Below are positions 8,170-44,210 of a stretch of DNA of 48,026 bases, piece by piece. A program made the position numbers and the translations under genes. The stretch is from IMG/VR virus record IMGVR_UViG_3300030329_003604, positions 1 through 48,026 of that record. The stretch is one strand, 5' to 3'. Source of the stretch: a virus. Below the pieces are notes generated by a model, which made no database searches, was not told the origin of the DNA, and saw only the letters and a program-made list of their open reading frames with translations. The stretch's first letter is position 1; each line of letters starts with the position of its first letter.

Positions 8170-8730
8170 ATGAGTTTACCAACTGTAACAGCACGAATCT
8201 ACGTTGCCTGCCTTGCCGCCTACAACAACGGTATTCTTCACGGCAAATGGATAGACGCATCTAGCGACGAATCCGAGATGCAAGAGGCCGTTAACGCCAT
8301 GCTTGCCGAGTCACCAATCGAGGACGCAGAAGAGTGGGCAATCCACGACTGCGAAGGCTTCGCACACTTGGACGAGTACGAGGACTTCGACGTGATAGCC
8401 GAAAGAGTCGGACACTGGGAAACCTACGGACAGGACGAGGTCGAAGCATACGAAGGCTACTTCGGCGAATTCGACGCCGAGGACTTCCAAGACCGCTACG
8501 CCGGAGGTTGCCGAGATTACCACGGAGACCGCCGCCGTTTCGCCTGCGAACAGTTCGAAGAACTGATGTTATGCGATTACACGGAAGAGCAACGAGACAC
8601 GTTCTGGAGTCACGCAGATGAAGACTCAATTCTTCGGTGGTTCGAAGACTGGAACGTCTTCGTTGAAGACAAGACGCCAACGCCTAGCAATCAGGCTTCA
8701 TGGTGCTACGTCTTCCGAATTGACCTCTAA
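8170..8730 (+). CDS. ardA: ArdA-like anti-restriction DNA-mimic protein
   Basis: 186 residues. The start, after MSLPTVT, has the ArdA signature ARIYVACLAAYNNGILHGKW (8-27). The rest is extremely acidic (many Asp/Glu in residues 35-120), as expected of a protein that mimics bent B-DNA and blocks type I restriction-modification enzymes. Length is typical for the family. First gene of the early plus-strand operon, directly under the strong promoter, so it would be made soon after DNA entry, when protection is needed. ATG 8170 has GAAAGG eight bases upstream. Confidence 0.93.
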   Translation: MSLPTVTARIYVACLAAYNNGILHGKWIDASSDESEMQEAVNAMLAESPIEDAEEWAIHDCEGFAHLDEYEDFDVIAERVGHWETYGQDEVEAYEGYFGEFDAEDFQDRYAGGCRDYHGDRRRFACEQFEELMLCDYTEEQRDTFWSHADEDSILRWFEDWNVFVEDKTPTPSNQASWCYVFRIDL

Positions 8731-9824: not shown

Positions 9825-10049
9825 ATGAAACCGGTAATAGAAACTCAGTCACTGGCTGAACTGTTTTGCGCAGTCGAGGACGTGACCAACCAGCTAGACG
9901 CTGACCAACTTTACGAGGTGTTAGTCGCTGCGAATTCGTTTGATCAAATGAAGGAAATCTGCGACATGCCAGAGGCGAAACCAGAACACATGTATGCAAT
10001 CAACCAGATGCTATGGTCAGCATACGAGCTTAAGATAGGGAGGGTGTAA
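9825..10049 (+). CDS. Unknown 74-residue acidic helical protein
   Basis: I start at ATG 9825 because the GAAAGG ribosome site ends eight bases upstream; an in-frame TTG at 9810 lies inside that site. Helical and acidic throughout (SLAELFCAVEDVTNQLDADQ, EHMYAINQMLWSAYELK). Stop TAA overlaps the start of the recombinase (TAATG), so the two are coupled. No family recognised. Confidence 0.6.
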   Translation: MKPVIETQSLAELFCAVEDVTNQLDADQLYEVLVAANSFDQMKEICDMPEAKPEHMYAINQMLWSAYELKIGRV

Positions 10050-10723
10050 TGAAACTAATCGCCTATGCACGTGTTAGCACTGGTGATCAGCAGACAATCG
10101 AGGCTCAGGGCGATAAAGCCCGAGCCTTTTGTCAGTTGCATGACCACGAACTAACACACATCTACACTGATGAGGGCGTGTCCGGTCAAACCATCGACAG
10201 GGACGGCCTGAGAGATTGCCTAAACGCTTTGAAGAAGGCCGATGGGATAGTCATCACAAAACTCGATAGGCTCTCTCGTAGTCTCAGGGATTGGTGCTGG
10301 TTGATGGATTACATTCACGGCCAGAAGAAGGTGTTGGTCAGTGTCACCGATGGCATCGACACATCAACTGCGGCAGGTGAGATGATGGCCAATATGCTGG
10401 CTACGTTTGCCCAGTTCGAATTGCGGTCAATCAAAGAACGAACGCTAACTAGTATGAACTACCTACGCAAACAGAATCGTAGGATCAGCAGACACGCTCC
10501 CTACGGCTATGAATTCGATCCAAATGACTCACAACACCTCATTCCCCATAGCCAGGAAGCCTGGATATTGGGTAAAATCCGTGGATTACACAGTCAAGGC
10601 TGTGGTTTTGCGGAGATTGCCAACCGACTGAATTCGGAAGGCCGTTTGAATCGTTCGGGGAAACCTTGGAACCGATCAGCAATCTATAAAATCGTGAAAC
10701 GACAGGAGAAGATTCGTGGATAA
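10049..10723 (+). CDS. Small serine recombinase (resolvase/invertase type)
   Basis: 224 residues. N-terminal catalytic domain with YARVSTGDQ (nucleophile Ser10), YTDEGVSG (40-46) and the ITKLDRLSRS block (69-78: K71, D73, R75, R77). Then a long E-helix (AAGEMMANMLATFAQFELR, 108-126) and a short C-terminal helix-turn-helix (AEIANRLNSEG...WNRSAIYKIVKRQ). Length fits DNA invertases and resolvases, not large serine integrases. A separate tyrosine integrase is present at 21664, so this enzyme may resolve multimers, invert a segment, or be a passenger. I saw no obvious crossover repeats nearby. Confidence 0.9.
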   Translation: MKLIAYARVSTGDQQTIEAQGDKARAFCQLHDHELTHIYTDEGVSGQTIDRDGLRDCLNALKKADGIVITKLDRLSRSLRDWCWLMDYIHGQKKVLVSVTDGIDTSTAAGEMMANMLATFAQFELRSIKERTLTSMNYLRKQNRRISRHAPYGYEFDPNDSQHLIPHSQEAWILGKIRGLHSQGCGFAEIANRLNSEGRLNRSGKPWNRSAIYKIVKRQEKIRG

Positions 10724-12710: not shown

Positions 12711-14453
12711 CTACTCCTTTGAACTGAATAACTGCCGTGCGCCATCGAACTCGATTCGCACCTTGGTTTGATTGACTGGCCCGTTTCTGCGTTTCAGCAG
12801 GAACACGTCATAAGCTGAACGGTCTGCATCTGGGTCACTGGATTTCGCCCACCAGTAACCTGTGGCCACACCACATGCATCACGTTCGATGCCACCGGAG
12901 TTAGCCAGATCGCTCATGCTCATCTCCAGCTTTTCCCGTTTGTCTACGTCACGAACTAACTGGCTGAGGGCCAGCATCGCTACGCCATAGTCACGACATA
13001 ATGCCTTGAGACGTTTGGATGTGTTGGTTGTCTGCTCATACAGGTTGCCGCCAGAGCCGGTGAGCAGTTGGATGTAATCAACACATACCAACTTGATTCC
13101 ATGTCTTTTAATGGCCGAGATAGTTGCTTCTTCGCATTCTTCAATCGAGCCGACGATGCGGAACTGTGTTGGTATCACATTCTCTGCGTTGTAGTACGCC
13201 TCCAGTTTGCGACGAACCGCATCTTTATCCTCGATCCACTCGGACTCAGAACCACCGGCAATGGTTTGCACATTGCGGCGACCAATCTCGTACTCGCCCA
13301 TCTCTGCGGATAAGAAGAGCGTGGGAATTCCTTGCTTCGAATTGTGGTACAGTAGCTGCAAACCGAGGGCTGTCTTTCCCATTCCAGGCCTCGCTCCATA
13401 TACCCACATTTCGCCGCCAGCAATCCGCATTCCAGCTAAGTCGAGACTGGCTACGCCTGTTGAGAAGTAGCTTTGAGTGCCGAGCTTATCGAGGTAAAAG
13501 TTTGAACAGTCGTGGATTGTTGAGGTCGCATGGTGAGAAACAGGTTTCTCCTGAGCAAACTCATATGCCTTTCGGACGGTTGCTAAAACCCAATCGTCAC
13601 GACTGCCCTTTTCGTAGTTGTTTTCGTAGCACCACACACGGATCATTTGCTCAATGTCGAATGTGGTGAAGTGTCGTTTGACTGCCAGCACTGCCATGGA
13701 CTGGACCAATGAGGACATACTGCGGTCCTCAAGTCCTTCCTTTGATCCATGCCATCGTTGAGCTAATCGGTCATGAGGGTTGAGCCGGACAAACGTTGCA
13801 ATGGCTGAAGGTAAGTCACCGTCAACCTGAACCGGTGTTGCTGGCTCAAGTCGAGTGTGCAGCCTCGATGCGTAATCCTGCATTTCGTCAGGGTCAATGG
13901 TTTGGATTGACTCCACATCCATCTCAAGCCAGTTTGATTCCACGTCAACGAAATGGCTTTTGTTCCAGAACGGATAGCGGATTAAGTTTCCGTAGCCTTT
14001 ACCACGTAAGCGTTCCTGCTTTGGGAATATCTCGGTGAGTGACATATCGAGTTGGCTTGCGACCAATCGAAAGAATGCCCGTGGCTTGTATGCCTCAACC
14101 GGTTGGTTGAAGAATATCCAGATGTGAGCACCACTGTTTGCCGAGTGTTCGACGTAGACTGGAAAGTTCTGCTCGACCAAGTAGTAGTAAAGCTTCTCGA
14201 CTTCCTTACGCCATTCAGGGTTCGGATCGTTTTCGTGGTTGTCGATGTCAACACATGCCAACATCACAGTGTTGTCAGCCAGCATCGGGTAAAACCCGTA
14301 GCAAACCTTTCCACCACGATGGAGGTCGTCGAATATAAGTTCGGTAGGTGGCTTCTCAGTAAACGGCTTGAAGTTACTGCCTGGAAACTGTTTAGCTACC
14401 ACATCATCTCTGCCGACGAAGTGCTCTAAGATCAGTCCTGTGCTGGTTCCCAT
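12711..14453 (-). CDS. AEP-type primase fused to DnaB-like helicase
   Basis: 580 residues, ATG 14453. N-terminal part (about 30-190) looks like an archaeo-eukaryotic primase: MLACVDIDNH with D69/D71, NSGAHIWIFF with H110, and a basic block KQERLRGKGYGNLIRYP (145-161). A helical linker follows (215-325). The C-terminal part is a RecA-fold replicative helicase: Walker A GARPGMGKT (353-361), Walker B LVCVDY (455-460), a sensor-like ALSQLVRDVDKR and an arginine-rich FLLKRRNGPV. One protein would unwind and prime, replacing the TOPRIM primase-helicase of T7-like phages. It lies in the replication operon after a probable helicase loader. Confidence 0.85.
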   Translation of the reverse strand: MGTSTGLILEHFVGRDDVVAKQFPGSNFKPFTEKPPTELIFDDLHRGGKVCYGFYPMLADNTVMLACVDIDNHENDPNPEWRKEVEKLYYYLVEQNFPVYVEHSANSGAHIWIFFNQPVEAYKPRAFFRLVASQLDMSLTEIFPKQERLRGKGYGNLIRYPFWNKSHFVDVESNWLEMDVESIQTIDPDEMQDYASRLHTRLEPATPVQVDGDLPSAIATFVRLNPHDRLAQRWHGSKEGLEDRSMSSLVQSMAVLAVKRHFTTFDIEQMIRVWCYENNYEKGSRDDWVLATVRKAYEFAQEKPVSHHATSTIHDCSNFYLDKLGTQSYFSTGVASLDLAGMRIAGGEMWVYGARPGMGKTALGLQLLYHNSKQGIPTLFLSAEMGEYEIGRRNVQTIAGGSESEWIEDKDAVRRKLEAYYNAENVIPTQFRIVGSIEECEEATISAIKRHGIKLVCVDYIQLLTGSGGNLYEQTTNTSKRLKALCRDYGVAMLALSQLVRDVDKREKLEMSMSDLANSGGIERDACGVATGYWWAKSSDPDADRSAYDVFLLKRRNGPVNQTKVRIEFDGARQLFSSKE

Positions 14454-21488: not shown

Positions 21489-21662
21489 ATGCAAAAGCTT
21501 TTAACTGATAAGCAAGCTGCCGAATACCTCGGCATTGGAGTTAGTACGCTGTGGAAGTACGTACAGCGTAAGGAGATGCAGGTCGTTCGACTTGGGCGTG
21601 GTTCAACACGCTTCGATATCGATGACCTGAACAATTACATCGCAGAACGTAAGGGATCGTAG
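21489..21662 (+). CDS. xis: Excisionase-like HTH_17 protein
   Basis: 57 residues; ATG 21489 preceded by AAAGGAG. LTDKQAAEYLGIGVSTLWKY (5-24) followed by a basic wing (RKEMQVVRLGRGSTRFDIDD) is the MerR-like winged helix of phage excisionases and AlpA-type proteins. It ends one base before the integrase gene, the usual xis-int order. It would bend attachment-site DNA and favour excision. Family clear, excision role inferred from place. Confidence 0.75.
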   Translation: MQKLLTDKQAAEYLGIGVSTLWKYVQRKEMQVVRLGRGSTRFDIDDLNNYIAERKGS

Positions 21663-21663
21663 G

Positions 21664-23322
21664 ATGTCACTACACGTAAACCGAAATAATAAAACGAGTA
21701 AAAAAGGCTCGTGGGTGGTTAGATGGCGAGAGCACGTGAACGGCAAGCTGCTACCTCGGAATTTGTATTTAGGAAGCACTGCTGACTTGTCAGAATCGCA
21801 GGCTCAATCGCATCACGATATGATTTTATCAATCGTTGGTAATGTAGAGCAGGGCATGTCACTTGACCGTAACCAATCAGCTTGGTTGGCCAAAGCACCA
21901 GAGAAGGTGCATGCAAAGTGTGTTGAGTATGGGCTTTGTCGTCCACGGTCTATAAAGCGGCAGAAGTCCGAGTATTCGGTAGAGAGTTGTGTCGAAGTGT
22001 TTATGCAGCAGGCTGCGGTTTCTAAAGGCACGAAGAGCGTTCTGGAAAAGGCGTTTGGTAACCTGAAAAAATTCTTAGAAGGGAAGAAGGTTACGGACGT
22101 GCGGGATGTCACAAAAACGCATGGTAAGGATTTTCGTAAATGGCTGCTGACCAATGGGCGTGAGATTGGTTCTGGACTATTGGCTGAATCAACTGTCGGT
22201 AAGCGAGTAGAGAAGTGTTCTCAGCTCTGGAATTGGCTACTAGAAGAAGAATATGTAACCAGGAATGTGTTCGCCAAAGCCGTCGGCGACACAAAGCCTG
22301 ATAAGACACGTCAGACCTACGTTACGCTTGAACAAACTCAGGCGATGATAGATTGTCAGCCTACAGAGCAGGATAAGTGCATCGTCGTTCTCGCTCGCTA
22401 TATGGGAATGCGTGCCCCAAGTGACATGGTAATGCTTAAAAAATCTGATGTTCACTGGGGAAGTGACCCTAAGACCGACCCACCCACGGTCACAATTAAC
22501 TCGCTGAAGACAGGCAAGCGTGTGTGTCCATTGTTCCCAGAGGCTCGCTGGGCCTTCGAATACTTATGTGAGCGTCAGGAGGCCGCTGAGGGCTTCCTGA
22601 TACAGGGTGAGCGATGGGATGATGTTCGCCGTGGAACGCACGAGACGAAAGACCTGAGCCTCTCAACACGCTTTAAAAAACGGTATGAAAAGGCTATGGG
22701 CAAAGAATGTTGGCCAAAATTGTTCAACAACATGCGTGCCAGTCGCATCACCGAGCTCATAAAGATTCACGGAATTGACCAACATAGCGTTGGTGAATGG
22801 GTCGGAAACACACCTGCAATCCAGAATCAGCACTACTTACAGATCATGCAGGAAGACCACGCTAAAGCCGCTAGTGTTGGCTACGGTTTAAATACCGTCA
22901 CAAATACCGTCACAGAATTGGCCAATATCAGCGAATCTCAGGTCGTCTCTAACGACCTCTACAAGCGTGTTTTAGAGACCACGCCGGCTGATGAACTTGC
23001 CCGCAATACCCTTATTTTAGAGCACTTAAGTGCTCTCATGCGGTCCAATAAAAAAGCCTCCAGTCTCCTGAAGGCTCTGTTAGCAGAAAGTCTGCAAGTA
23101 GCGGGGGCCGGATTCGAGAAACCCGTTTCAAACATCGTGAAACATAGGGTCGGTAAGGTGAAAGCTGTAAATACCGTCACAGATACCGTCACACAGGTTA
23201 CCACTTCCTCTATATACACGGAAAGCAGCTCAGACTGGGAGAGTGTAACTGACATTACGGAAGATTGGATTTTGGAGTCTTTGGCAGAAGCAAAAAAGGC
23301 TGCTAGAAGCCAACCGGCATAA
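21664..23322 (+). CDS. int: Tyrosine integrase with long C-terminal extension carrying attP-like DNA
   Basis: 552 residues. Arm-binding/SAM-like N-terminal part (about 90-200), catalytic domain with Arg in YMGMRAPSD (near 249), NSLKTGK Lys, NNMRASRITEL (second Arg near 357, with Asn in place of the usual His two or three residues before it), GEWVGN and nucleophile Tyr in NQHYLQI (near 390). After the catalytic Tyr, 150 more residues follow, an unusual length. These include two copies of an NTVT-x-TVT repeat and the DNA that looks like attP. Integration there would change or truncate the C-terminus. It catalyses site-specific integration and excision. Confidence 0.9.
   Translation: MSLHVNRNNKTSKKGSWVVRWREHVNGKLLPRNLYLGSTADLSESQAQSHHDMILSIVGNVEQGMSLDRNQSAWLAKAPEKVHAKCVEYGLCRPRSIKRQKSEYSVESCVEVFMQQAAVSKGTKSVLEKAFGNLKKFLEGKKVTDVRDVTKTHGKDFRKWLLTNGREIGSGLLAESTVGKRVEKCSQLWNWLLEEEYVTRNVFAKAVGDTKPDKTRQTYVTLEQTQAMIDCQPTEQDKCIVVLARYMGMRAPSDMVMLKKSDVHWGSDPKTDPPTVTINSLKTGKRVCPLFPEARWAFEYLCERQEAAEGFLIQGERWDDVRRGTHETKDLSLSTRFKKRYEKAMGKECWPKLFNNMRASRITELIKIHGIDQHSVGEWVGNTPAIQNQHYLQIMQEDHAKAASVGYGLNTVTNTVTELANISESQVVSNDLYKRVLETTPADELARNTLILEHLSALMRSNKKASSLLKALLAESLQVAGAGFEKPVSNIVKHRVGKVKAVNTVTDTVTQVTTSSIYTESSSDWESVTDITEDWILESLAEAKKAARSQPA
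22890..22913 (+). repeat. Arm-type integrase-site repeat, left pair
   Basis: AAATACCGTCAC repeated twice head to tail without a gap (22890-22901, 22902-22913), inside the int coding sequence, encoding NTVTNTVT. The same 12-mer pair recurs at 23169-23192. Position, 185 bases left of the core, fits the P arm of a lambda-type attP. Confidence 0.6.
23050..23076 (-). terminator. Minus-strand terminator beside the att core
   Basis: In minus-strand RNA AGCCT...AGGCT (23076-23055) with inner CAG/CTG pairing is followed by TTTTTTATTG. It lies about 20 bases past the tRNA-3'-end-like core, oriented as a terminator for a tRNA gene that the phage would interrupt, although it sits within int. Confidence 0.5.
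23098..23118 (-). other. Probable attP core: tRNA 3'-end-like sequence
   Basis: On the minus strand this reads CTCGAATCCGGCCCCCGCTA then C: positions matching T-loop TCGAAT, T-stem CCGGC, acceptor CCCCGCT and discriminator A of a tRNA. It is flanked by paired arm-type repeats at 22890 and 23169. The intact phage genes on both sides show that this is an unintegrated attP, not an attL/attR. Which tRNA is targeted cannot be told; the acceptor pattern recalls initiator tRNAs. Confidence 0.55.
23169..23192 (+). repeat. Arm-type integrase-site repeat, right pair
   Basis: AAATACCGTCAC then AGATACCGTCAC (23169-23180, 23181-23192), one mismatch from the left pair. 51 bases right of the core, fitting a short P' arm. 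Encodes NTVTDTVT in the integrase tail. Confidence 0.6.
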
Positions 23323-23433: not shown

Positions 23434-23994
23434 ATGGACTTGAGAAACCTATTTGAGCTAACTGCATGGTTTAACCTCAACAAGGCTAGGGCTAATTCAG
23501 AAGAATTAGTCAAACAAGGCCGACACGCCGAAGCACTCCGGCGTGGTCTTAAAGATCGAAAAGACTGCCCCTATTGCGGAGCAAAGCTCCCTAAAATTGG
23601 CGTCGAAATCTGCATGCACTGTCGCAAAGAATTGGCTTGGGTTTATAGCACCCCGTGTAAGCCGGGAACTGAACCGCAGGTTAAGAAAAAACTAGATAAA
23701 GAGCGAAAAGCCCGACTGAGAAAACTTGAAGAAAGAGCAAATCAGGCAGAAGCAGAACGCCAACTCGCTGAGGAACAAGCGGCCAAGTTCAAAGAACGCG
23801 CGCCTGCTTGGATTACTGGAGGCACTTTGTTTTTTTTGGGAGCGGTTGTCGGGTTCTTACTGAAAGCAGCAGAGGGAGATGGTGATATCGGAGGTAAAGT
23901 GAGTTTTGGGGAGTGTGTCACTTCCGCACTTACCATTGCAACCGTTGTTACTTCTTTTTACGCATTCGTACTTTGGCTTTGGTCACGCCGATGA
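23434..23994 (+). CDS. Membrane-anchored zinc-ribbon/coiled-coil protein
   Basis: 186 residues, ATG 23434 after TTAGGAG. CPYC (45-48) and CMHC (60-63) make a zinc ribbon, followed by a charged coiled coil (85-122) and two membrane segments (127-145, 162-183). Same style as the plus-strand genes scattered in the late operon, but here it follows int and ends at a hairpin shared with the convergent lysis genes. Likely a lysogenic-conversion gene; function unknown. Confidence 0.7.
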   Translation: MDLRNLFELTAWFNLNKARANSEELVKQGRHAEALRRGLKDRKDCPYCGAKLPKIGVEICMHCRKELAWVYSTPCKPGTEPQVKKKLDKERKARLRKLEERANQAEAERQLAEEQAAKFKERAPAWITGGTLFFLGAVVGFLLKAAEGDGDIGGKVSFGECVTSALTIATVVTSFYAFVLWLWSRR

Positions 23995-24010: not shown

Positions 24011-24247
24011 CTACTCCAGCTTCCGCAGTATCTCTTCCTGAATGCTCACCATCTTCCGCACGAGTTCACCTTGGAGCTCAAGCTGCTGCTCAAGCTTCAC
24101 GAGGAACTCTCGGTGCGAGGTGATGACTGGATCGACTACACGAGCCAGCAGCACCTCACCGACTTTCTTGAAACCGTATAAGAGAATCAGACACAAGCCG
24201 ATTGGGAAACCGACATCAGTCAGCATCTGAGGTAAGTTCGTTTCCAT
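24011..24247 (-). CDS. Small TM/coiled-coil protein, holin- or spanin-like
   Basis: 78 residues from ATG 24247 (METNLPQ), with GAGGACTGGT upstream. One hydrophobic segment (about 10-27, VGFPIGLCLILLYGF) then a long amphipathic coil (EFLVKLEQQLELQGELVRKM). This resembles BhlA-type holin-like proteins or inner-membrane spanins. Last gene of the late operon, next to another holin candidate, so a role in lysis is inferred. Confidence 0.55.
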   Translation of the reverse strand: METNLPQMLTDVGFPIGLCLILLYGFKKVGEVLLARVVDPVITSHREFLVKLEQQLELQGELVRKMVSIQEEILRKLE

Positions 24248-24650: not shown

Positions 24651-24875
24651 TCAGGGTCCTATTTTGAACTTAAAGAAAGCGGCAATGCCCATAATCATCC
24701 CGATGAGGATCACGAGCCACTTGCGTTTAGCAGCGACCTGCTTAGCCTTCTCAGCCTTGGCCAGTGTTAGGTTAGCCTTGGCTTCAGAGCGGCTGGTCTT
24801 AGCCCCTGTGCGTTGTTCTATGCGTGACGTGCCTTCGTACTGACCGTCTTCTCGATATCGTTTGCGTTTTCTCAT
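24651..24875 (-). CDS. Small basic single-pass membrane protein
   Basis: 74 residues from ATG 24875, whose ATGA overlaps the stop of the 2256-residue gene. Basic, Lys/Arg/Ala-rich first 52 residues (MRKRKRYREDGQYEGT...) then one membrane helix (about 53-69, KWLVILIGMIMGIAAFF). Could be a spanin-like or ejection accessory protein. Coupling to the giant virion gene supports it. Confidence 0.55.
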   Translation of the reverse strand: MRKRKRYREDGQYEGTSRIEQRTGAKTSRSEAKANLTLAKAEKAKQVAAKRKWLVILIGMIMGIAAFFKFKIGP

Positions 24876-27800
24876 CGTCGAATCTTGCTCCGGTTTTGCG
24901 AGTACCATTTGCGGTACTCAATTGCAGCGTCTTTGTAGGCCTCCCAGTGCTTTGTGTCTTTGAGTGCGTACTCATCTGTATCAGCGTTTGACCGTATTGG
25001 TCGCTTCGGTATCTTGGTCGCACTGCTCACAACCTTTGCGAGGACTATCCGTACCTGTCGATCCATGTCGATGTCGAAGTTCACGTTACGCTCGTAATGG
25101 GCTTTGACGTTATTGCGAGCTTCTTCAAGAGCGTTCTTTGTGATCTTGAGGACAACCGGCGAAGGCTCTCGCTGCATCTCTGGAGGTATGGCTTTCAGGA
25201 CGACCTCACGTGCTAATGTCCCAGACACTTTCCTAAACTCCTGATACTGGCCGTCACGATCCATCTTGCGTTCAGTCTTACCAGTTGGCGTGTACGTGTC
25301 TCTCGGTGGTGTCGTTAGGGTTTTGTCGTCAGGGTTGAGTCGATTCCAGTTATCTATCACACGATTACCTGCGAAGCGTTCAGCACTCTTGCTACGCATT
25401 CCAATAAGACTCTTGGCATCGTTAGAACGTTCAGCTGGAAAACCCCACTGGTCATAGATTACAGGAGCATCGAGCACGTTCTCACGCTGTAGAGCCTGCT
25501 TGCCAATCGTATCCACATCCTTATCACGCACATATGGATCGAACTTGCGTGTGGTCTGTCCCCACAGTTTCGGAATGAAGCTACCTATCATCGACGCAGC
25601 CCATCGCTTACCGCCTTTCTCTTCCGTTATTCCGGTATACAGGTCACTGATACCACGCAGGAATGTTTTCTCATGCAGCTGTCCCGCAAGGCTTCGCCCT
25701 AATATCGTTGGTTCACCTTTCTTAATTGCATCCACGCCGTCAATTGTGGTTGCACCAATAATGGCAAGAGGGTCTTGTCGGTCATAAGAAACCCACTCGT
25801 CTCCAAGCTTCATTGCCATAACAGGGTTCACGCCTTTGCCGTACCTATAGGTTCGTTCTCTACTGTCATGACCTTTAGCTGCTCCGGTTAGAACCTGTTC
25901 CTCTTCGTCTTCAGAGTTCCTGAGCCCCAGTAACAGAGCAAAGATGATTGTCGAGGCTACTTGGCTAACCGCTTCACTGCCGACTCCCTTAAGTGCTGGC
26001 TTGCCATCAAGTAGGTTGCGAACAATCTTGTACGGTAGCAACATGGGCATTCCAGGCAGCCGCACAAGAGCTTGTGATGTAATGCGTACTGGTGTTCTCA
26101 CAAACGGAGCAATTGTATGCCGTACTAGGAATCCTCCGGCTGTATCTGTGCGAAGTTTATCACCGGCTTCAATAAGCACCTTGGATGCACCCTTGCCGGT
26201 ATCTTGGAACATACGAAGCGAAGCCTCGTTCATTGCACGCTTCCAAGCAGGCGACTGCTTATTGGCAACTAAGTCTTCAATCAACTCGGCCTCTGATAAG
26301 CCACCACGGTCTTTCGTATTACGTGCAATCATCGCTGCCTGCACACCAACGTGCATGTGAGCATTGAGTGTTTTGAAGAACTGGTCAACCATGTGCATCG
26401 GGCCGAATCCAAGCACACTGCGAATCTTGCCTCGAACACGCCCAGGTAAAGAATGTTCCATCTCAATTTTGGATTTGAAATCAGTTCCAGTCTTGTCTTC
26501 AATGAGCTTGTTTTTATGCCACCCGTGCCACTCGTTTGCCCATGCACCGAATGCATGTTTGAACGCAGACCCTAATGCATTTGTAATGCCCGCTGCACCG
26601 TATTGCTTGTAGTCACGAAGCTGTAGTTGATGTGGATCAGCCTTGCCGAAGATGCCAGCGGTGGAGTTTGCAGCTGCCCACATGACTTGCTCTAGTTCGC
26701 GCCAAGTAGAGAATGTGGCGTTACTGAAGGCATTGACCATCTGAGTTTCTGGGCCACTGAGCATTGCGGCGTAACGGTACTCTGATATCACATCAGCGAG
26801 TTGTCGAACTTTGTGTCGCTTCGTTTTGTTAATAAAGTCAACGACTTTAACCGACGACTCAAGGTCACGAGCTAGTCGCTGTAACCCAGCAGTAGTCGTG
26901 TCATACCCAAGCTTCTCGATAAACTCCGTAATCTTTTGAAGTCTCTTACGTTCTTTCAGTAGAGCCTGATACGCCTCCCGTCCAATTAGCTTCTGGTCAG
27001 GCATCGGTGTGCTAGGGTCTAGCATATCCCCATCTGCGGATGTCTGCTGTTGTGTTTCAGTCTGAGGTGGCTGCTGAGCGTCGGGTTGTACTGGAGTCTC
27101 AGCATCTGGTTGGGGAGGTTGTTGGGCATCAGGCACAACAAAGTCTTCGCCTAGCTTCTCAGGAATTGAGGAAAGCAGCTCCTCGGTTTTCTCATCGACC
27201 GATAACATGCCTTCGGTAATGGCATCTAAGCGAACCTGCACATCGGTCTTGCGGTTGCGATTTACCTCCTTGAACATTGCCAGCGTTTGAGCGGTCTGCG
27301 TTCCGGCTTTACGCTGTAATAAATTGATTTTGTGAAACTCTGCCATCTGCTTAAGAGACACAGGGCCGCCGTTAAAGATTCCATCTTTCAGCTGATCCGC
27401 ATGTAACACATCACGAGGGTCTATTGAACCTTCCTCAAGACGCTGCATTAACTCGATGTCGGCGTTCGGATTTCTAGCCCTCTCCTTCTCGATCTTGTCG
27501 AGTTCGTTCTGGACTTTAATGCGTTGAGGGTCGTATTGCTCATTCAGGTCTTCGACAGCTTCACGTGCAGCTTCATTGCCCTGTCGGTTAGCGTAGCGGT
27601 AAGGACTGCCTTGAATGATCGGGTCAGTAGCACCCTCCTCATTGATCCACGCTGGCGGGATGTTAATTTTCTGGTCAGCGTAAACAGTGTCCTCGCCGCT
27701 AGCGGTCTTATTAAAATCTCCGTGCGGTCCATAATTCACCCATGAGTTCTGCCCACGAGTTTCCATCGTCATTGCTGGTCGAGCAAGCGGTGAGTACATG

Positions 27801-30800
27801 GCAACATGAGATCGCCAAGCATTCTCCTCACCGAATGCTCTAAATCCATTCCCCTCTTTTACATGGCCGAAGTAATCGTGAACGATTCGGAAGATGTCGT
27901 TATATCGTGCCTGTTTGCCTGCGATGATTTCATCAGTTAGCTCAAACAGCGGATTCTGTGCAGGATCAAAGTCAGCATCGGAACCAAAACCTAGGTCTGT
28001 TGGGAACACATAGAAGTGATTGTTTCTTCGGATATCCTCGGTAGCTAATCTAGGTGACTCACTATATGGGTCACCCGCCTTTTCGAGCATCTCTTCAGTG
28101 ATCCACTCTACCTGCAATCCTGTCTCTTTAATCACAAGCCACTGTGCGAGTGTCTCATCCATCATCGCACGATAAGACTTTGCTACGGCAGGATCATTGG
28201 GAATATGCTCTGCGGATTCATACCAATCGGCTATCCGAGCTGCACGTTGTTTATCCACCTTCTGGTAAGTGGATGGTGGGTTGTAATCAATTCCCGAACG
28301 CTCAGCGTAAACAGCAGCGGCTGTGCGAGCGATTTTAGAGGGGCCTATCTTCGCATCAGGATAGGCTTTTAACTTGATGTTTGTGGGGAGTCCTTCGAGG
28401 GCAGGTTTCTCAATAGTGGCCCTATTCTTTGACGAAAGCTGCTCAGAGCCTCTTGGTAGGCTTCCTCGCTCTCGTAATTCTCCCGCTTGGGTCCCTTGCT
28501 CTTGAGCCAGTTGTCCCGTTCTTGTTTGCTGTTGTGAGGCATAATTTTCTCCAGTCGGTCTAGTATAGTTTTTATCGGGCATTCCTTGAATAGGCGTTGA
28601 ACCAATTTCGGTTTTCCCTGGATGAACTAAATTCACTGAACTCATCTCTTTTAGTTCAGCTAAGGCATCCGCTTTAGTGCCTCCATCAGGCATTCGGAAG
28701 CCTTGTTTCCAAAACAGGTTTAGGCTGTTCTCGCTGCTTACTTGCGCTCCAATACTTCCCTTTAGTGTATCCCTCATCTCCTGTACTAAACGAGTTGCAA
28801 TCCCCTGCCGTCTTTTGTCTTCATCGACAAACGTACTCAGCACAGAATAATCGGTGTCAGCCCATTCGTTTGCTACGGCCTCCAGCTTTCCTCCTTCTAA
28901 TGTGAATTGGTGTGGGTCGGAGAAGTTGTCTATTCCCTCGAAAGTATTTATCCGACTTACCGGCATTCCTTGTGTGATGTTCTGCTGCTTACCCATAAAC
29001 ACATCCATCTGTTCGGCTGAACGTGCTTGCCAGAAGTCTTCGCTCTTAAACAGCTGCTCTGCGGCTTTGCTGCTTAGCTCTACCTTTCCACCGGTTAGTT
29101 TGCTTAGGATGCGGTTGATCCAGTTCTTGATACGTTGAACCATGCCTTGGTCTTCCCAGAGCTCAGCATACAAAGCGATGTCTTCTGACTGCTCACGGAA
29201 GGATTTATTTGGATCGCTATACTGCTTGATTAGTGCGTCACGCTCAGCCTTATTCCACATACCTGTGTTGAAAGCGAAATGCACCATTTCGTGTTTTAGG
29301 ACCTTAACCTGATTAGCATTTGCTTTAGCCCAGTCAGTATTGTTCAAGTCAACAACAGCGAGCAGATTGAGCTCTGCCGCCTGTTCTTTCGTTGGCGGTC
29401 GTATCAAACCTGCACTGAATTGACCTTGCGCTTCCTTCGCTCGGTAATCGGTAATGTACTGTTCTGCGGTAGGGAATTGTTGCGTGAATCCCTCTACGGT
29501 AGTTGAGTAATCCTTATACAGTTGCTGTAGCTGAGAGTCGGTAATGTCAGCCGTCTCACTAAGGCGTATTAACACACTGCCGGTAGAGAGGTCTAACTGG
29601 AAGCCCTCATCGACTTCCTTGACGTTGATGCCTGGAAACGCTCGACGAATATCACGAACTGCGATGTTTCCAACTGCTTTTTTTTGGAGTTTTGTTTCCT
29701 CCTGCTGTGCCTCGGTTTGCTCGACCTGTGGAAGGACATCCTGTTGCTGTTCTTCGACAGTGTCTTGTTTTACTGTTACAGGCTGTTGTTGCTCAGGCTG
29801 AATCGGTTGTTGAGCTTCAGGTGCAGGTTGCTCTGCTTCAGGCTGGACAGGTGCTGGTTGTGCAGGGGCAGGTTGTATTGGATCAGGCTGAATAGGTGGT
29901 TGCTGCTGAGCCGCACCTTGTTTCGCCTCCATCTTTGCGCTGGTGCTTAGATAGTCTTCAGCCAGTTTGAGGAACTGCTGACGTGCTTGCTTGTTAGGCA
30001 TCAACTCAAGCAGATTCTTGTCGCTATCGGGGACAGGTATTTGAGCAAACGATGAGCGAGAGTCTTTACCTTCCTTTACTAGAGAAGCCACATCGTTTCG
30101 AAAGCCTTCGTTATTTTCAATCTGTACTGTGAGAATTGCCCCTATTGGTGTTTTCTCGAAATCCTCGACCGCAGGTGTTGGCGTAGCACGACCACCAGCC
30201 ATACCCTTCATTGCACCAATGCCGACAGCCTCGGTAAGTCCTTGTGTCAGCATGTCATCACGGCGTTGAGAAGCTTGCTCTGGTGTTTCATCTGTCACGC
30301 CAAGCTGATAGCCAGCCTCTTGAGCGACATCACCTGTCAGGCCAAAGGATTGGTCGATTTGCGGAGCAGCATCACGGTTGTAACCAGGCATCTGGCTGAA
30401 GAAGACTTCATTCGCACCCTGAACGATTTCGGTAACACGCTCTTCACCCAACTCAGCAATCATTCCGTTGAAACCAATACGACTCGCTATCGGTCCAGCA
30501 TCAGGATTAGCACGTTGCCATGACTGACGAATGCGATTTAGGATGTACGTTTTCATGTTCTCAGGCACATCCGCTGACGTAGGCTTTGGTGTCATTGCCT
30601 TACGGATTGGTGATCCGATCTTACTTGCACCTTTAGCCAGTGCCTCACCACCAACTTTTTCAACAAGGTACTCGCTCATCTGGTTAACGACAGCCTTGGG
30701 TAAGCTGTTCATCCATGAGTCTTTCTCGGTTGCAGCGAATCCAGTCTCAGTGCTCTCGTCGTATTTGAGGTCACGCTGTGGTAGAGCTTGAGCTAGCGTC

Positions 30801-31642
30801 CCACCAACGTCTGTGACGCCTGCATAGATACCAGCTTCAGTTACTGCTGGTGCTGCCTTGACTGCACCTCTGACAACAGCTGAAGCCATGAATTTCTTGA
30901 ACTTCTCTTTGCCAAGCCGCTTCGCAAGGATGGCTAAGCCTTGGCGACCGATAGCTCTAGTTCCACCACCAATACCGCCAGTCAATGCAATGTCAGCGGC
31001 ATACGCTGGTAGTTCAGACACACCACGAAAAACCTTCATGGCTCTTGGATCATCTTCTTGCATCTCGGCGTAAACGATGTCTTTGGCGACGCCGTAGTAA
31101 TCAGCTGGTTCGGCATTACCCTCGTAAATGCGATCTATTGATTTACCCTTGATCACAGCATCGGTAATTTCACCCACACCGAAGGTAAATGGTAGGCGTT
31201 TGACTGTACCCATCATGATGTCCGTGAAATTCCCTTTACCGACTTTTTCAGGATTGTCACGAAACCACTGGATTGTGTTCATCAGCTTAGTGGCTGAGTT
31301 ATGGTCCTTTCTATGCCAGGGAAGTGGAGCCGCCTCCTTCCCGCCCTGAAACTGAAACTCTTTCGCCCGTCTTTCCTTTGCCCGATCCTCTTTCGTCCAC
31401 AAATCCTTTGGGGTTTTATTGCCGGAATAGCGTAGTTCAGACACACGACCTTTGTTGATGAACTCATAACGACGACGACGCTCGTCAGGGTAGACAATCT
31501 GCCACGCTTCGTTGACTGGGCGCAAGCCGCTTTCCCAAGCACGCTGCCGGTCTTCGACTGACATCTTTGCGTACATGTCGTCCTTGAGTGTGACAGGTTC
31601 TGTGTCTTTGAATTCGTAGAATAGTTCGTCTGGATCAGCCAT
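24872..31642 (-). CDS. Giant polyvalent ejection protein (2256 residues)
   Basis: Probably packed in the virion and ejected with the DNA. Visible parts: a helical N-terminus; a Pro/Gln-rich linker (about 580-650); a HEMVH zinc-protease-like motif (about 780-786); a GNAT acetyltransferase-like domain (about 905-990, with RRQGIATRLV near 940); a domain with IVHDYFGHVKEGNGFRA and RGQNSWVNYGPHGD (about 1250-1320); a second Pro/Gln linker (about 1504-1540); then a long helical C-terminal region with a hydrophobic segment (VASTIIFALLLGL). Domain mosaics of this kind are known as polyvalent proteins of phages and conjugative elements. No lysozyme motif recognised. Second-to-last size class after tail genes, as for T7 gp16. 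Confidence 0.75.
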   Translation of the reverse strand: MADPDELFYEFKDTEPVTLKDDMYAKMSVEDRQRAWESGLRPVNEAWQIVYPDERRRRYEFINKGRVSELRYSGNKTPKDLWTKEDRAKERRAKEFQFQGGKEAAPLPWHRKDHNSATKLMNTIQWFRDNPEKVGKGNFTDIMMGTVKRLPFTFGVGEITDAVIKGKSIDRIYEGNAEPADYYGVAKDIVYAEMQEDDPRAMKVFRGVSELPAYAADIALTGGIGGGTRAIGRQGLAILAKRLGKEKFKKFMASAVVRGAVKAAPAVTEAGIYAGVTDVGGTLAQALPQRDLKYDESTETGFAATEKDSWMNSLPKAVVNQMSEYLVEKVGGEALAKGASKIGSPIRKAMTPKPTSADVPENMKTYILNRIRQSWQRANPDAGPIASRIGFNGMIAELGEERVTEIVQGANEVFFSQMPGYNRDAAPQIDQSFGLTGDVAQEAGYQLGVTDETPEQASQRRDDMLTQGLTEAVGIGAMKGMAGGRATPTPAVEDFEKTPIGAILTVQIENNEGFRNDVASLVKEGKDSRSSFAQIPVPDSDKNLLELMPNKQARQQFLKLAEDYLSTSAKMEAKQGAAQQQPPIQPDPIQPAPAQPAPVQPEAEQPAPEAQQPIQPEQQQPVTVKQDTVEEQQQDVLPQVEQTEAQQEETKLQKKAVGNIAVRDIRRAFPGINVKEVDEGFQLDLSTGSVLIRLSETADITDSQLQQLYKDYSTTVEGFTQQFPTAEQYITDYRAKEAQGQFSAGLIRPPTKEQAAELNLLAVVDLNNTDWAKANANQVKVLKHEMVHFAFNTGMWNKAERDALIKQYSDPNKSFREQSEDIALYAELWEDQGMVQRIKNWINRILSKLTGGKVELSSKAAEQLFKSEDFWQARSAEQMDVFMGKQQNITQGMPVSRINTFEGIDNFSDPHQFTLEGGKLEAVANEWADTDYSVLSTFVDEDKRRQGIATRLVQEMRDTLKGSIGAQVSSENSLNLFWKQGFRMPDGGTKADALAELKEMSSVNLVHPGKTEIGSTPIQGMPDKNYTRPTGENYASQQQTRTGQLAQEQGTQAGELRERGSLPRGSEQLSSKNRATIEKPALEGLPTNIKLKAYPDAKIGPSKIARTAAAVYAERSGIDYNPPSTYQKVDKQRAARIADWYESAEHIPNDPAVAKSYRAMMDETLAQWLVIKETGLQVEWITEEMLEKAGDPYSESPRLATEDIRRNNHFYVFPTDLGFGSDADFDPAQNPLFELTDEIIAGKQARYNDIFRIVHDYFGHVKEGNGFRAFGEENAWRSHVAMYSPLARPAMTMETRGQNSWVNYGPHGDFNKTASGEDTVYADQKINIPPAWINEEGATDPIIQGSPYRYANRQGNEAAREAVEDLNEQYDPQRIKVQNELDKIEKERARNPNADIELMQRLEEGSIDPRDVLHADQLKDGIFNGGPVSLKQMAEFHKINLLQRKAGTQTAQTLAMFKEVNRNRKTDVQVRLDAITEGMLSVDEKTEELLSSIPEKLGEDFVVPDAQQPPQPDAETPVQPDAQQPPQTETQQQTSADGDMLDPSTPMPDQKLIGREAYQALLKERKRLQKITEFIEKLGYDTTTAGLQRLARDLESSVKVVDFINKTKRHKVRQLADVISEYRYAAMLSGPETQMVNAFSNATFSTWRELEQVMWAAANSTAGIFGKADPHQLQLRDYKQYGAAGITNALGSAFKHAFGAWANEWHGWHKNKLIEDKTGTDFKSKIEMEHSLPGRVRGKIRSVLGFGPMHMVDQFFKTLNAHMHVGVQAAMIARNTKDRGGLSEAELIEDLVANKQSPAWKRAMNEASLRMFQDTGKGASKVLIEAGDKLRTDTAGGFLVRHTIAPFVRTPVRITSQALVRLPGMPMLLPYKIVRNLLDGKPALKGVGSEAVSQVASTIIFALLLGLRNSEDEEEQVLTGAAKGHDSRERTYRYGKGVNPVMAMKLGDEWVSYDRQDPLAIIGATTIDGVDAIKKGEPTILGRSLAGQLHEKTFLRGISDLYTGITEEKGGKRWAASMIGSFIPKLWGQTTRKFDPYVRDKDVDTIGKQALQRENVLDAPVIYDQWGFPAERSNDAKSLIGMRSKSAERFAGNRVIDNWNRLNPDDKTLTTPPRDTYTPTGKTERKMDRDGQYQEFRKVSGTLAREVVLKAIPPEMQREPSPVVLKITKNALEEARNNVKAHYERNVNFDIDMDRQVRIVLAKVVSSATKIPKRPIRSNADTDEYALKDTKHWEAYKDAAIEYRKWYSQNRSKIRR
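28369..28542 (-). CDS. Possible nested gene in an alternative frame of the giant virion gene
   Basis: 57 residues from ATG 28542, preceded by CTGGAGAAAATT, a good ribosome site. Composition is protein-like: MPHNSKQERDNWLKSKGPKR then a charged helix ENYESEEAYQEALSSFRQRI. The main frame across the same DNA is a Gln/Thr/Gly-rich linker. It may be a real overlapping gene or chance. Confidence 0.35.
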   Translation of the reverse strand: MPHNSKQERDNWLKSKGPKRENYESEEAYQEALSSFRQRIGPLLRNLPSKDSPQTSS

Positions 31643-42317: not shown

Positions 42318-43421
42318 CTATGGGTTCGTATCTGTAAAGAATGAGCCGTTGTACTTCACAACGTCTCCGTTCATGTATCTGTTTTGTTGTTCGTTCCATG
42401 CGTCCAGATCACTGCCATCGCCGTTGTATCCCATGCGTTCAGGTGTATGCATGAGCTTGTCGTAGGCTATTGAGGCATTGAGCCTGTTTTGGAATGCAGC
42501 TGCATGAATACCAGCGTTGTTGTCCATCCGTGCTTCAGCGATAGCCAGACACGACTCAAGGATTGTCTCAGCGTGAGCAGCACCACCTTTGGGATACGGA
42601 TAGCTTGCGTCAATCTTTCCAGGCAGTGCGTGGTAGCGATAACTAAGCGTGTATGCCTTATCCGGTTTGGGATAAAGCATCAGCTGAAATCGCTGTCCGT
42701 TTGATCCGTCAGAGCTGATCGGACGAATAGCGGCAAGCTTCGGGTCACTGGCAAGATCGCTATAATCTCGCTGTCGCAACACTCTTATCCGATGCTCACC
42801 AGTTATTTCGATTGGGAACCAGCGACTGTCATCGGAGGAGTAAGTCATCTGGCCTATCAAGCCGCCAAAGTCTGCACTGAGTGTGTAATCAGATGTGTTG
42901 GCGACGGTTGACAGTGTTGTTGTTGGTTCGAGGAAGCTCCACTTGTAACCTGTTGGTGCGTTCTGTGTCGGAGCAGGGTGGTAGAAGTTGCGAAGGCCTG
43001 ACTTCACGATGTCGTCGATCTGTGAGCCTTCGTCACTTGACCAGTTCGAGCTTGTGCGTTCACCAAACAGAAACCAGCCAATCTCCTTGCGAATGTCCGC
43101 ATACGTGAGACTGAGGCTTGATTCAGTTGATGTGTCTGCCGGACTTCCGAGCGTCTTGATAGTGAACTGAACAGGTATGGCATCACTGTGTGTAAACAGC
43201 AAACCAACTACCGATGCGTTCATTTCCGCAGCGGTTAGGTTAACGCTGTACTGGCCGTTGCCTTCTTCGGCGACAGAGCCTGAAATGCTGGCCTGCGTGC
43301 CACCGTCTTTGGTAACATATTTACCTATGGCACTGGCTACGCCTGTAAGGGCAGCACCAGTGGATTTATTGACTAGGCCGAAGGTAAATCCGGTGACGGC
43401 TTGGTTGCGTATGAAACTCAT
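42318..43421 (-). CDS. Tail adaptor (head-tail connector) protein with N-terminal beta domain
   Basis: 367 residues, ATG 43421. Residues 1-95 share the beta domain seen in the 5150-5560 gene (GFTFGLVNKSTGAALTG, VTKDGG, EEGNGQYSVNLTAAEM). From about 100 the protein looks like a podoviral gp6/gp11-type adaptor: TYADIRKEIGWFLFG, DDIVKSGLRNFYHP, YKWSFLEPTTTLST, RWFPIEITGEHRIRVLRQRD, TILESCLAIAEARMDNNAG. The adaptor ring docks under the portal. Its first 32 coding bases are repeated at 43892-43923. Confidence 0.75.
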   Translation of the reverse strand: MSFIRNQAVTGFTFGLVNKSTGAALTGVASAIGKYVTKDGGTQASISGSVAEEGNGQYSVNLTAAEMNASVVGLLFTHSDAIPVQFTIKTLGSPADTSTESSLSLTYADIRKEIGWFLFGERTSSNWSSDEGSQIDDIVKSGLRNFYHPAPTQNAPTGYKWSFLEPTTTLSTVANTSDYTLSADFGGLIGQMTYSSDDSRWFPIEITGEHRIRVLRQRDYSDLASDPKLAAIRPISSDGSNGQRFQLMLYPKPDKAYTLSYRYHALPGKIDASYPYPKGGAAHAETILESCLAIAEARMDNNAGIHAAAFQNRLNASIAYDKLMHTPERMGYNGDGSDLDAWNEQQNRYMNGDVVKYNGSFFTDTNP

Positions 43422-43435
43422 TTAGTTGTTGGGGG
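43390..43435 (+). repeat. 46-bp cassette flank, left, copy A
   Basis: Begins CCGGTGACGGCTTGGTTGCG and ends TTTAGTTGTTGGGGG; identical to 43892-43937. Spans the first codons of the adaptor gene and the leader of the zinc-ribbon gene at 43443. Confidence 0.9.
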
Positions 43436-43442
43436 GATAGGT

Positions 43443-43823
43443 ATGGCGTTAAAAAGGTGTATTGATAAGGAGTGCATCACAACGTGGGCTTCGGGAGACC
43501 ATTGTCCAAAATGTGGGCTAGCTGCCGACGTTTCTAAGATTGCACCGAAGCATGTTGCTTCCAAAACCGAATTGGCAGCAGAACTGTCCGACGACACAGA
43601 ATTCAAACCATCTAACCTGCGATGGTTGCCAATGGCTTTCTACATAATTGCTTGCCTTGGTTTCTCTGGCTGGATTCTCATTGCTATCAATCTGGAAAGC
43701 TGGGAGGCATTTGGCTACGGCATTGGCACAACGATTGCTTGCTTGGGCAGTGGCCGAGTCATTGAACTCTTGCAAAACATCGATGACAAACTAGAGCAAA
43801 AAAGCCTGAGCGAGTCGCCCTGA
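43443..43823 (+). CDS. Zinc-ribbon two-pass membrane protein, cassette A (moron)
   Basis: 126 residues from ATG 43443, with GGGGGGATAGG upstream; the longer frame lacks a ribosome site. C6, C11, C21 and C24 (CIDKEC, CPKC) form a zinc ribbon; then a linker and two membrane segments (62-83, 89-108) and an acidic tail. Plus strand, opposite to the late genes on both sides. Leader and tail are repeated around the next plus-strand gene. Function unknown; lysogenic conversion is the best guess. Confidence 0.75.
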   Translation: MALKRCIDKECITTWASGDHCPKCGLAADVSKIAPKHVASKTELAAELSDDTEFKPSNLRWLPMAFYIIACLGFSGWILIAINLESWEAFGYGIGTTIACLGSGRVIELLQNIDDKLEQKSLSESP

Positions 43824-43838
43824 CGCAGCAGCCGAAGC
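43803..43838 (+). repeat. 36-bp cassette flank, right, copy A
   Basis: Begins AGCCTGAGCGAGTCGCCCTG and ends CAGCAGCCGAAGC; identical to 44175-44210. It encodes the last residues and the stop of the cassette A gene. Confidence 0.9.
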
Positions 43839-43841
43839 TGC
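43826..43841. terminator. Hairpin after cassette A
   Basis: AGCAGC-CGAA-GCTGCT, a six-base stem with tetraloop (UUCG on the minus strand), followed on the plus strand by CCATCTTTTG. A second stem, CAGACACA with TGTGTCTG, lies at 43856-43886. Possible terminators of the moron transcript. Copy B of the flank diverges inside this hairpin. Confidence 0.5.
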
Positions 43842-43891
43842 TCCATCTTTTGCCCTCAGACACACGCATGCGTTAGGATGTGTCTGGTAAG

Positions 43892-43937
43892 CCGGTGACG
43901 GCTTGGTTGCGTATGAAACTCATTTAGTTGTTGGGGG
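43892..43937 (+). repeat. 46-bp cassette flank, left, copy B
   Basis: Second, identical copy of 43390-43435. Here the adaptor codons are not part of a gene, which shows that this is the duplicated copy. Confidence 0.9.
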
Positions 43938-43951
43938 AGTAAAAGAAAAAT

Positions 43952-44176
43952 ATGTATTCAAGTTTTGAGGCGGAAATCCTGGACCCAGCTAAAAGTCAGA
44001 CTACAGCTCAAACTCTAAGAAAAAAGTCTCCAGTGGATGAAATGTCTGATAGCGAGTTGCTTCGCAAAATCGCCAAGCACAGTGAAGAGTCTGCCCGCCA
44101 CCTTTTCTACATTCGGATTGGTATTGCGGTTATTGTCTTTGTCCTGCTCGGTGGTTTCACTATTACATTCAGGTAG
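43952..44176 (+). CDS. Tail-anchored small membrane protein, cassette B (moron)
   Basis: 74 residues, ATG 43952. Charged, helical first 50 residues (QTLRKKSPVDEMSDSELLRK) and one C-terminal membrane segment (about 52-72). Unrelated in sequence to the cassette A protein although both are framed by the same 46-bp and 36-bp flanks. Ends at the start of the right flank. Confidence 0.6.
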   Translation: MYSSFEAEILDPAKSQTTAQTLRKKSPVDEMSDSELLRKIAKHSEESARHLFYIRIGIAVIVFVLLGGFTITFR

Positions 44177-44210
44177 CCTGAGCGAGTCGCCCTGACGCAG
44201 CAGCCGAAGC
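44175..44210 (+). repeat. 36-bp cassette flank, right, copy B
   Basis: Second, identical copy of 43803-43838, here after the stop of the cassette B gene and therefore non-coding. Confidence 0.9.

Follow-up and report, generated by a model that had tools for sequence, protein, structure and literature searches.

An integrase gene and its neighbours

The stretch of DNA analysed here, referred to below as the window, is a virus record of 48,026 bases. Its integrase gene, int, is preceded by a small excisionase-like gene:

21489-21662, plus strand: gene for a 57-aa HTH_17 (excisionase-like) protein (Pfam HTH_17 9.9e-11), ending one base upstream of int
21664-23322, plus strand: int, encoding a 552-aa tyrosine integrase (Pfam SAM_5 8.8e-7; phrog_1 2.1e-22)
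22834-22836, plus strand: codon of the catalytic tyrosine Y391, the column of which is invariant in alignments A2 and A3

The protein has the make-up of a lambda-type tyrosine integrase: an N-terminal arm-binding-like domain (three strands and a helix), a SAM-like core-binding domain, a catalytic domain and, last, a tail whose coding sequence carries attP. The family alignments show little or no variation at R250, K276, R358, W379 and Y391, and the HxxR box has N in place of H. The structure model resembles lambda Int and Tn1549 Int, and with the heterobivalent integrases of lambda and Tn916/Tn1549 the window integrase shares the fold, the arm sites flanking the core and the arm-binding-like N-terminal domain. 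Used as a single query it found no match in viral contigs, INPHARED phages or PLSDB plasmids, and phmmer found none among PDB sequences. A gene similar to that of the HTH_17 protein adjoins int in 27 of the 144 family loci, and we regard the 57-aa protein as a candidate directionality factor.

Several other genes of the window can be recognized. A serine resolvase-type recombinase (10049-10723; Pfam Resolvase 2.5e-38) is present alongside the tyrosine integrase in the one phage, as are an ArdA-like antirestriction protein (8170-8730; Pfam 2.3e-22) and an AEP-TOTE (archaeo-eukaryotic-type primase) domain fused to a DnaB-type helicase domain (12711-14453). Directly right of the attP region, on the minus strand, a 2256-aa protein is encoded (24872-31642), which is likely a large virion protein. 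Searching viral contigs with it returned solely the IMG/VR contig L242, which is the same phage with an identical protein and which ends at window position 24011, short of attP. Finally, at 43390-44210 two small ORFs (about 43444-43823, with a zinc-ribbon-like stretch, and 43953-44177) lie on the strand opposite to the flanking virion genes. Each has its own bracketing pair of near-identical sequences, around 43390-43434 and 43892-43936 for the first and around 43803-43837 and 44175-44209 for the second, and the two look like duplicated cassettes with common ends.

An attachment site in the reading frame of int

The first-pass annotation of this DNA had placed a tRNA 3'-end-like core on the minus strand, flanked it with paired direct repeats in the P and P' geometry of lambda, and put the whole attP within int, past the catalytic tyrosine. 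All three parts of that description hold, with the following features:

22889-22914, plus strand: left (P) arm, two tandem copies of the 12-bp repeat AAATACCGTCAC, encoding NTVTNTVT (from repeat search and codon shuffles)
23043-23117, plus strand: 75-bp block common to host tRNA-fMet loci, comprising terminator, spacer and tRNA 3' end; its in-frame product is KKASSLLKALLAESLQVAGAGFE
23047-23077, minus strand: antisense intrinsic terminator, the hairpin AGCCTTCAGGAGACTGGAGGCT (-16.5 kcal/mol) followed by the T run TTTTTTATT
23099-23117, minus strand: attP core, the 3' end of tRNA-fMet from T loop to discriminator base; its plus-strand letters are TAGCGGGGGCCGGATTCGA (from tRNA matches and host loci)
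23118-23322, plus strand: distal ~68 int codons of the free phage, past the crossover, open in the int frame only
23168-23193, plus strand: right (P') arm, the same tandem 12-bp repeat 50 bp past the core, encoding NTVTDTVT

The two arms are 96% identical to each other. The 48,026 bp contain exactly four copies of the 11-mer ATACCGTCACA, at 22892, 22904, 23171 and 23183; all four are confined to the arms, and there are none on the opposite strand of the window. The best pair of 22-mers downstream of the tyrosine codon in the window agrees at 21 of 22 positions; the highest value that 200 codon shuffles reached was 17. The exact arm repeat of the window has no match in IMG/VR. Read on the minus strand, the exact 19-bp core is TCGAATCCGGCCCCCGCTA, and every one of its 35 exact matches in IMG/VR lies at a tRNA 3' end, 33 of them in genes called as tRNA-Met(CAT).

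Arms, core and terminator are all in frame within int after Tyr391: the P arm lies 52 nt, the core 262 bp and the P' arm 331 nt past the tyrosine codon. The int frame is stop-free from that codon to its end at 23322, and the other two frames have seven and six stops between tyrosine and core and four each past the core. With arms on both sides of a core that it would have in common with attB, the site has the layout of a lambda-type attP. The attP of lambda lies outside the int coding sequence; that of the window, unlike it, lies inside. Phage DNA flanks attP to the left and to the right, so the window represents the free, non-integrated state.

Integrated relatives at the initiator tRNA gene

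The target of the core is the gene for tRNA-fMet, the initiator tRNA-Met. A host tRNA with this 3' end, the absence of which would have spoken against the first-pass reading, is present in the metagenome-assembled genome that holds the remnant L039 and in three genomes of the same family. L039, found by a genome scan, is a broken int remnant at a contig end in 'Planctomycetaceae bacterium isolate SP4' (G001); the L039/L042 remnant is 54-62% identical to the window integrase at the amino acid level. It matches the window without a single difference across 23043-23117, after which its DNA enters antisense tRNA-fMet, and the remaining frame therefore ends in VAGAGFEPTTSRL and a stop. At the place of the left arm L039 has a different tandem 12-bp repeat, ATACTGGACCA (L039 10240-10290, encoding NTGPYTGP), so the arm sequence appears to diverge between close relatives.

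A 90-base query from the junction region, run against 241 genomes of the same family, had further matches in G613, at two places in G615, and in G618. In all, four sites in three planctomycete genomes (L039 in G001, G613, and G615 twice) have the remnant of an int tail joined to tRNA-fMet at the core, and the tRNA-fMet is intact at the junctions in G613 and at both sites in G615. The 75-bp block is 100% identical in G001 and G613 and 93-99% identical in G615 and G618. G618 has tRNA-fMet and a closely similar terminator but nothing homologous to int, which fits either an empty site or an old scar. The antisense terminator of attP is homologous to the DNA downstream of tRNA-fMet in G618, and it would terminate the restored tRNA gene. 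The homology with the host is 75 bp long, beyond the 19-bp core, because the tRNA's own terminator has been captured too.

Contig C12 of G615 carries a second, displaced core 5.0 kb away. The DNA past it aligns with two parts of the phage to the right of attP, window 23080-23147 (86%) and 23479-23552 (85%), and includes a decayed counterpart of the int tail. With both junctions of a decayed relative visible in G615, we conclude that integration replaces the ~68 last int codons with antisense tRNA, although separate events could in principle have produced the two G615 junctions. We found no intact integrated copy of exactly the window phage; the fMet junctions are decayed remnants of relatives. 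Comparison with these remnants bears out the earlier proposal that integration would exchange the 3' end of int, and the int-related junctions (L039, G613, G615) lie at the core, as it had predicted.

A family of planctomycete integrases carrying their own attP

We searched 392 Planctomycetota genomes with the window integrase and found relatives in 48. The first search alignment, A1, included a planctomycete-like integrase that served as bait only and supports no conclusion. The family is defined by catalytic similarity, a tandem arm repeat 35-61 nt past the tyrosine codon, a tRNA 3' core and a downstream P' arm. The window integrase has all of these, and is 22-27% identical in amino acid sequence to members other than L039/L042.

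An attP inside int raises the possibility of a suicidal integrase of the SSV type, whose gene is split and inactivated by integration. In archaeal SSV, pTN3 and pT26-2 the att site likewise lies in the integrase gene at a tRNA target, and both parts of the split gene are inactive (PMC8371274). The window differs in that the catalytic domain of its integrase stays whole: the split falls past the catalytic tyrosine, by 262 bp, so the catalytic residues stay in one frame, and of 69 relatives in host genomes 65 retain a full-length ORF with the tyrosine motif. We have rejected the suicidal reading on these grounds and consider it extremely improbable.

Most of these full-length planctomycete relatives (52 of 65) terminate within a tRNA gene read in antisense. 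Those tRNA genes represent 20 anticodon types, and several of the remaining 13 relatives have the same kind of ending with the tRNA not called. The stretch from tyrosine to tRNA is open in the int frame at 52 of 54 loci; the counts for the two alternative frames are 14 and 7. A terminator downstream of the tRNA is commoner across the family than in shuffles (22/52, compared with 43/260 shuffles), though not universal. For 10 elements we located, at 4-46 kb upstream of int, a displaced copy of the tRNA 3' end that is 14-23 bp long, and a script rejoined the two junction flanks of each to compute the excised site. In 8 of the 10 the rejoined int frame crosses the core and the right arm, which follows 40-60 nt later, and the rejoined frames end in a common motif (L..LI..W..L....R..I). 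On a FastTree tree the members that read through are scattered, and the window sits on a long, unplaced branch.

These comparisons also bear on whether the arms are sites in DNA at all. Being in frame and encoding a simple peptide repeat, they might be repeats of the protein (NTVTNTVT) or have arisen by chance, the tRNA-like core then being a relic with no role in integration. However, the repeat unit has identical DNA in the two arms and is found nowhere else in the 48 kb, L039 has its different tandem at the same place, other relatives use yet other tandem sequences with unchanged spacing to the left and right of the core, and host junctions fall at the core. Arm identity, differing repeats and junction position led us to reject the protein-repeat reading, to which we give hardly any credence, and the arms are treated below as parts of attP.

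The tail of the free form

A tail HMM was built only from the computed, rejoined tails and searched against 10,198 ORFs from the window and its IMG/VR relatives. Integrases of natural, unintegrated elements give the best matches, at their C-termini: L113 (4.4e-9), L128/L129 and L140/L141, then L137 and L153. These seven natural free-form relatives have the arm-core-arm layout inside int, with direct repeats matching at 20-22 of 22 bp that lie 35-61 and 222-284 nt past the tyrosine codon, both within the gene. In about 13 other distinct viral relatives with an arm pair, int stops before the core or the right arm. With about half of the arm-pair viral contigs stopping early, the position of the site is constant and read-through is common but not obligatory.

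In the structure model of L113 the att-encoded stretch (residues 377-458) is disordered, with a mean pLDDT of about 32, and the last 36 residues form a helical hairpin with pLDDT 77-92 for most of them. The conserved tail has no match among Pfam or NCBIfam families. Judged from sequence comparison, then, integration strips relatives of a conserved mini-domain that had not been named before. The tail of the window itself (23118-23322) does not match the family tail HMM, has no detectable homologue and gives a low-confidence structure model; the conserved W-L helical hairpin is not detected in it, being present in some members of the family and not obligatory. In L127 (848-1222) the tail-hairpin motif is found in another frame, just past an int reading GLEPPT, which suggests a frameshift or a separated tail ORF.

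The position of attP could be a by-product of packing int and attP together: the read-through frame would then be without function in the free form, the tail inert and the swap of C-termini neutral. The early stops in roughly half of the arm-pair viral contigs, a window tail conserved with no sequence found and the predicted disorder of the att-encoded linker in L113 are all compatible with this. Against it stand the int frame kept open at 52 of 54 loci and the C-terminal motif past attP, conserved among relatives and modelled as a confident hairpin, which argues for selection on the tail. On balance we think the by-product reading doubtful.

Relation to known systems

The documented precedent is the Myxococcus phage Mx8 (Tojo 1996, Magrini 1999). 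As described in PMC6070905, PMC4701971 and the Islander paper PMC4383910, its attP lies within int, and integration is reported to yield a shortened Int that is less active or re-specified. The window resembles the Mx8 change from IntP to shortened Int: its attP lies in a tyrosine integrase gene past the catalytic tyrosine, and on integration a new short C-terminus would replace the long one. An HTH gene beside int is a further likeness, the excisionase gene of Mx8 being uoi. The family HMM has no match in Mx8 Int, and the tail HMM none in the Mx8 tail; the best pairwise BLAST hit is at E 0.004, to one family member, and the equivalent place in Mx8 has no tandem 22-bp arm pair above codon shuffles. 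As Mx8 Int matches neither HMM, the two have a working principle in common, with homology not found. Unlike that of Mx8, the planctomycete arrangement is family-wide, with a conserved hairpin that is discarded.

Streptococcal ICEs that target rumA also carry att within the integrase gene and have C-termini that differ between the excised and integrated states (PMC4701971); their enzyme, however, is an unrelated serine recombinase, and their target is a protein gene. Integrases whose own genes contain attP have been described as very rare (PMC4701971). Our literature search, which covered few subscription journals, found no published account of a family-wide attP-in-int arrangement.

A model for integration and its consequences

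Comparison of sequences has established the anatomy of attP, the target tRNA, the junctions in relatives, the C-terminal exchange, the recurrence of the arrangement throughout the family and, in relatives, a conserved hairpin that is discarded. We are confident that the window is a free temperate Planctomycetota phage with a complete attP in the 3' third of int, and that integration at tRNA-fMet swaps the C-terminus of the integrase. In the mechanism that we propose, the N-terminal domain of Int would bind the tandem 12-bp arm sites, the arms thus being presumptive Int-binding sites, and Int would then recombine the attP core and the 3' end of the initiator-tRNA gene in the host. Phage DNA that doubles as int coding sequence would supply the last ~19 bases and the terminator of the restored tRNA, and int would lose its distal ~68 codons, gain about six antisense-tRNA codons and end in VAGAGFEPTTSRL. 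As the catalytic domain is left intact, the lysogen would keep a shortened, presumably active Int.

An effect of the exchange on the activity or stability of Int is plausible, given the conserved tail that relatives lose and the precedent of Mx8, the only one in the literature for an integrated-form integrase that is active but altered. By analogy with what is reported for Mx8, we infer that tail loss would shift the balance between integration and excision. More broadly, the family may work as a switch across the Planctomycetota: the hairpin would be present only in the circular state and be cut off by the enzyme's own integration, leaving an integrated enzyme with different activity, and the DNA between catalytic domain and hairpin would code at once for protein, arm sites, a tRNA 3' end and an antisense tRNA terminator. 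We judge the chances of this wider reading to be even.

An attP within int is normal for this phylum-wide family and offers a testable model in which temperate elements would set the direction of recombination by editing their own recombinase. The antisense-tRNA origin explains the GFEPxT endings on integrases of the family, and the arrangement gives an exact way to locate the element ends and the hosts of planctomycete phages.
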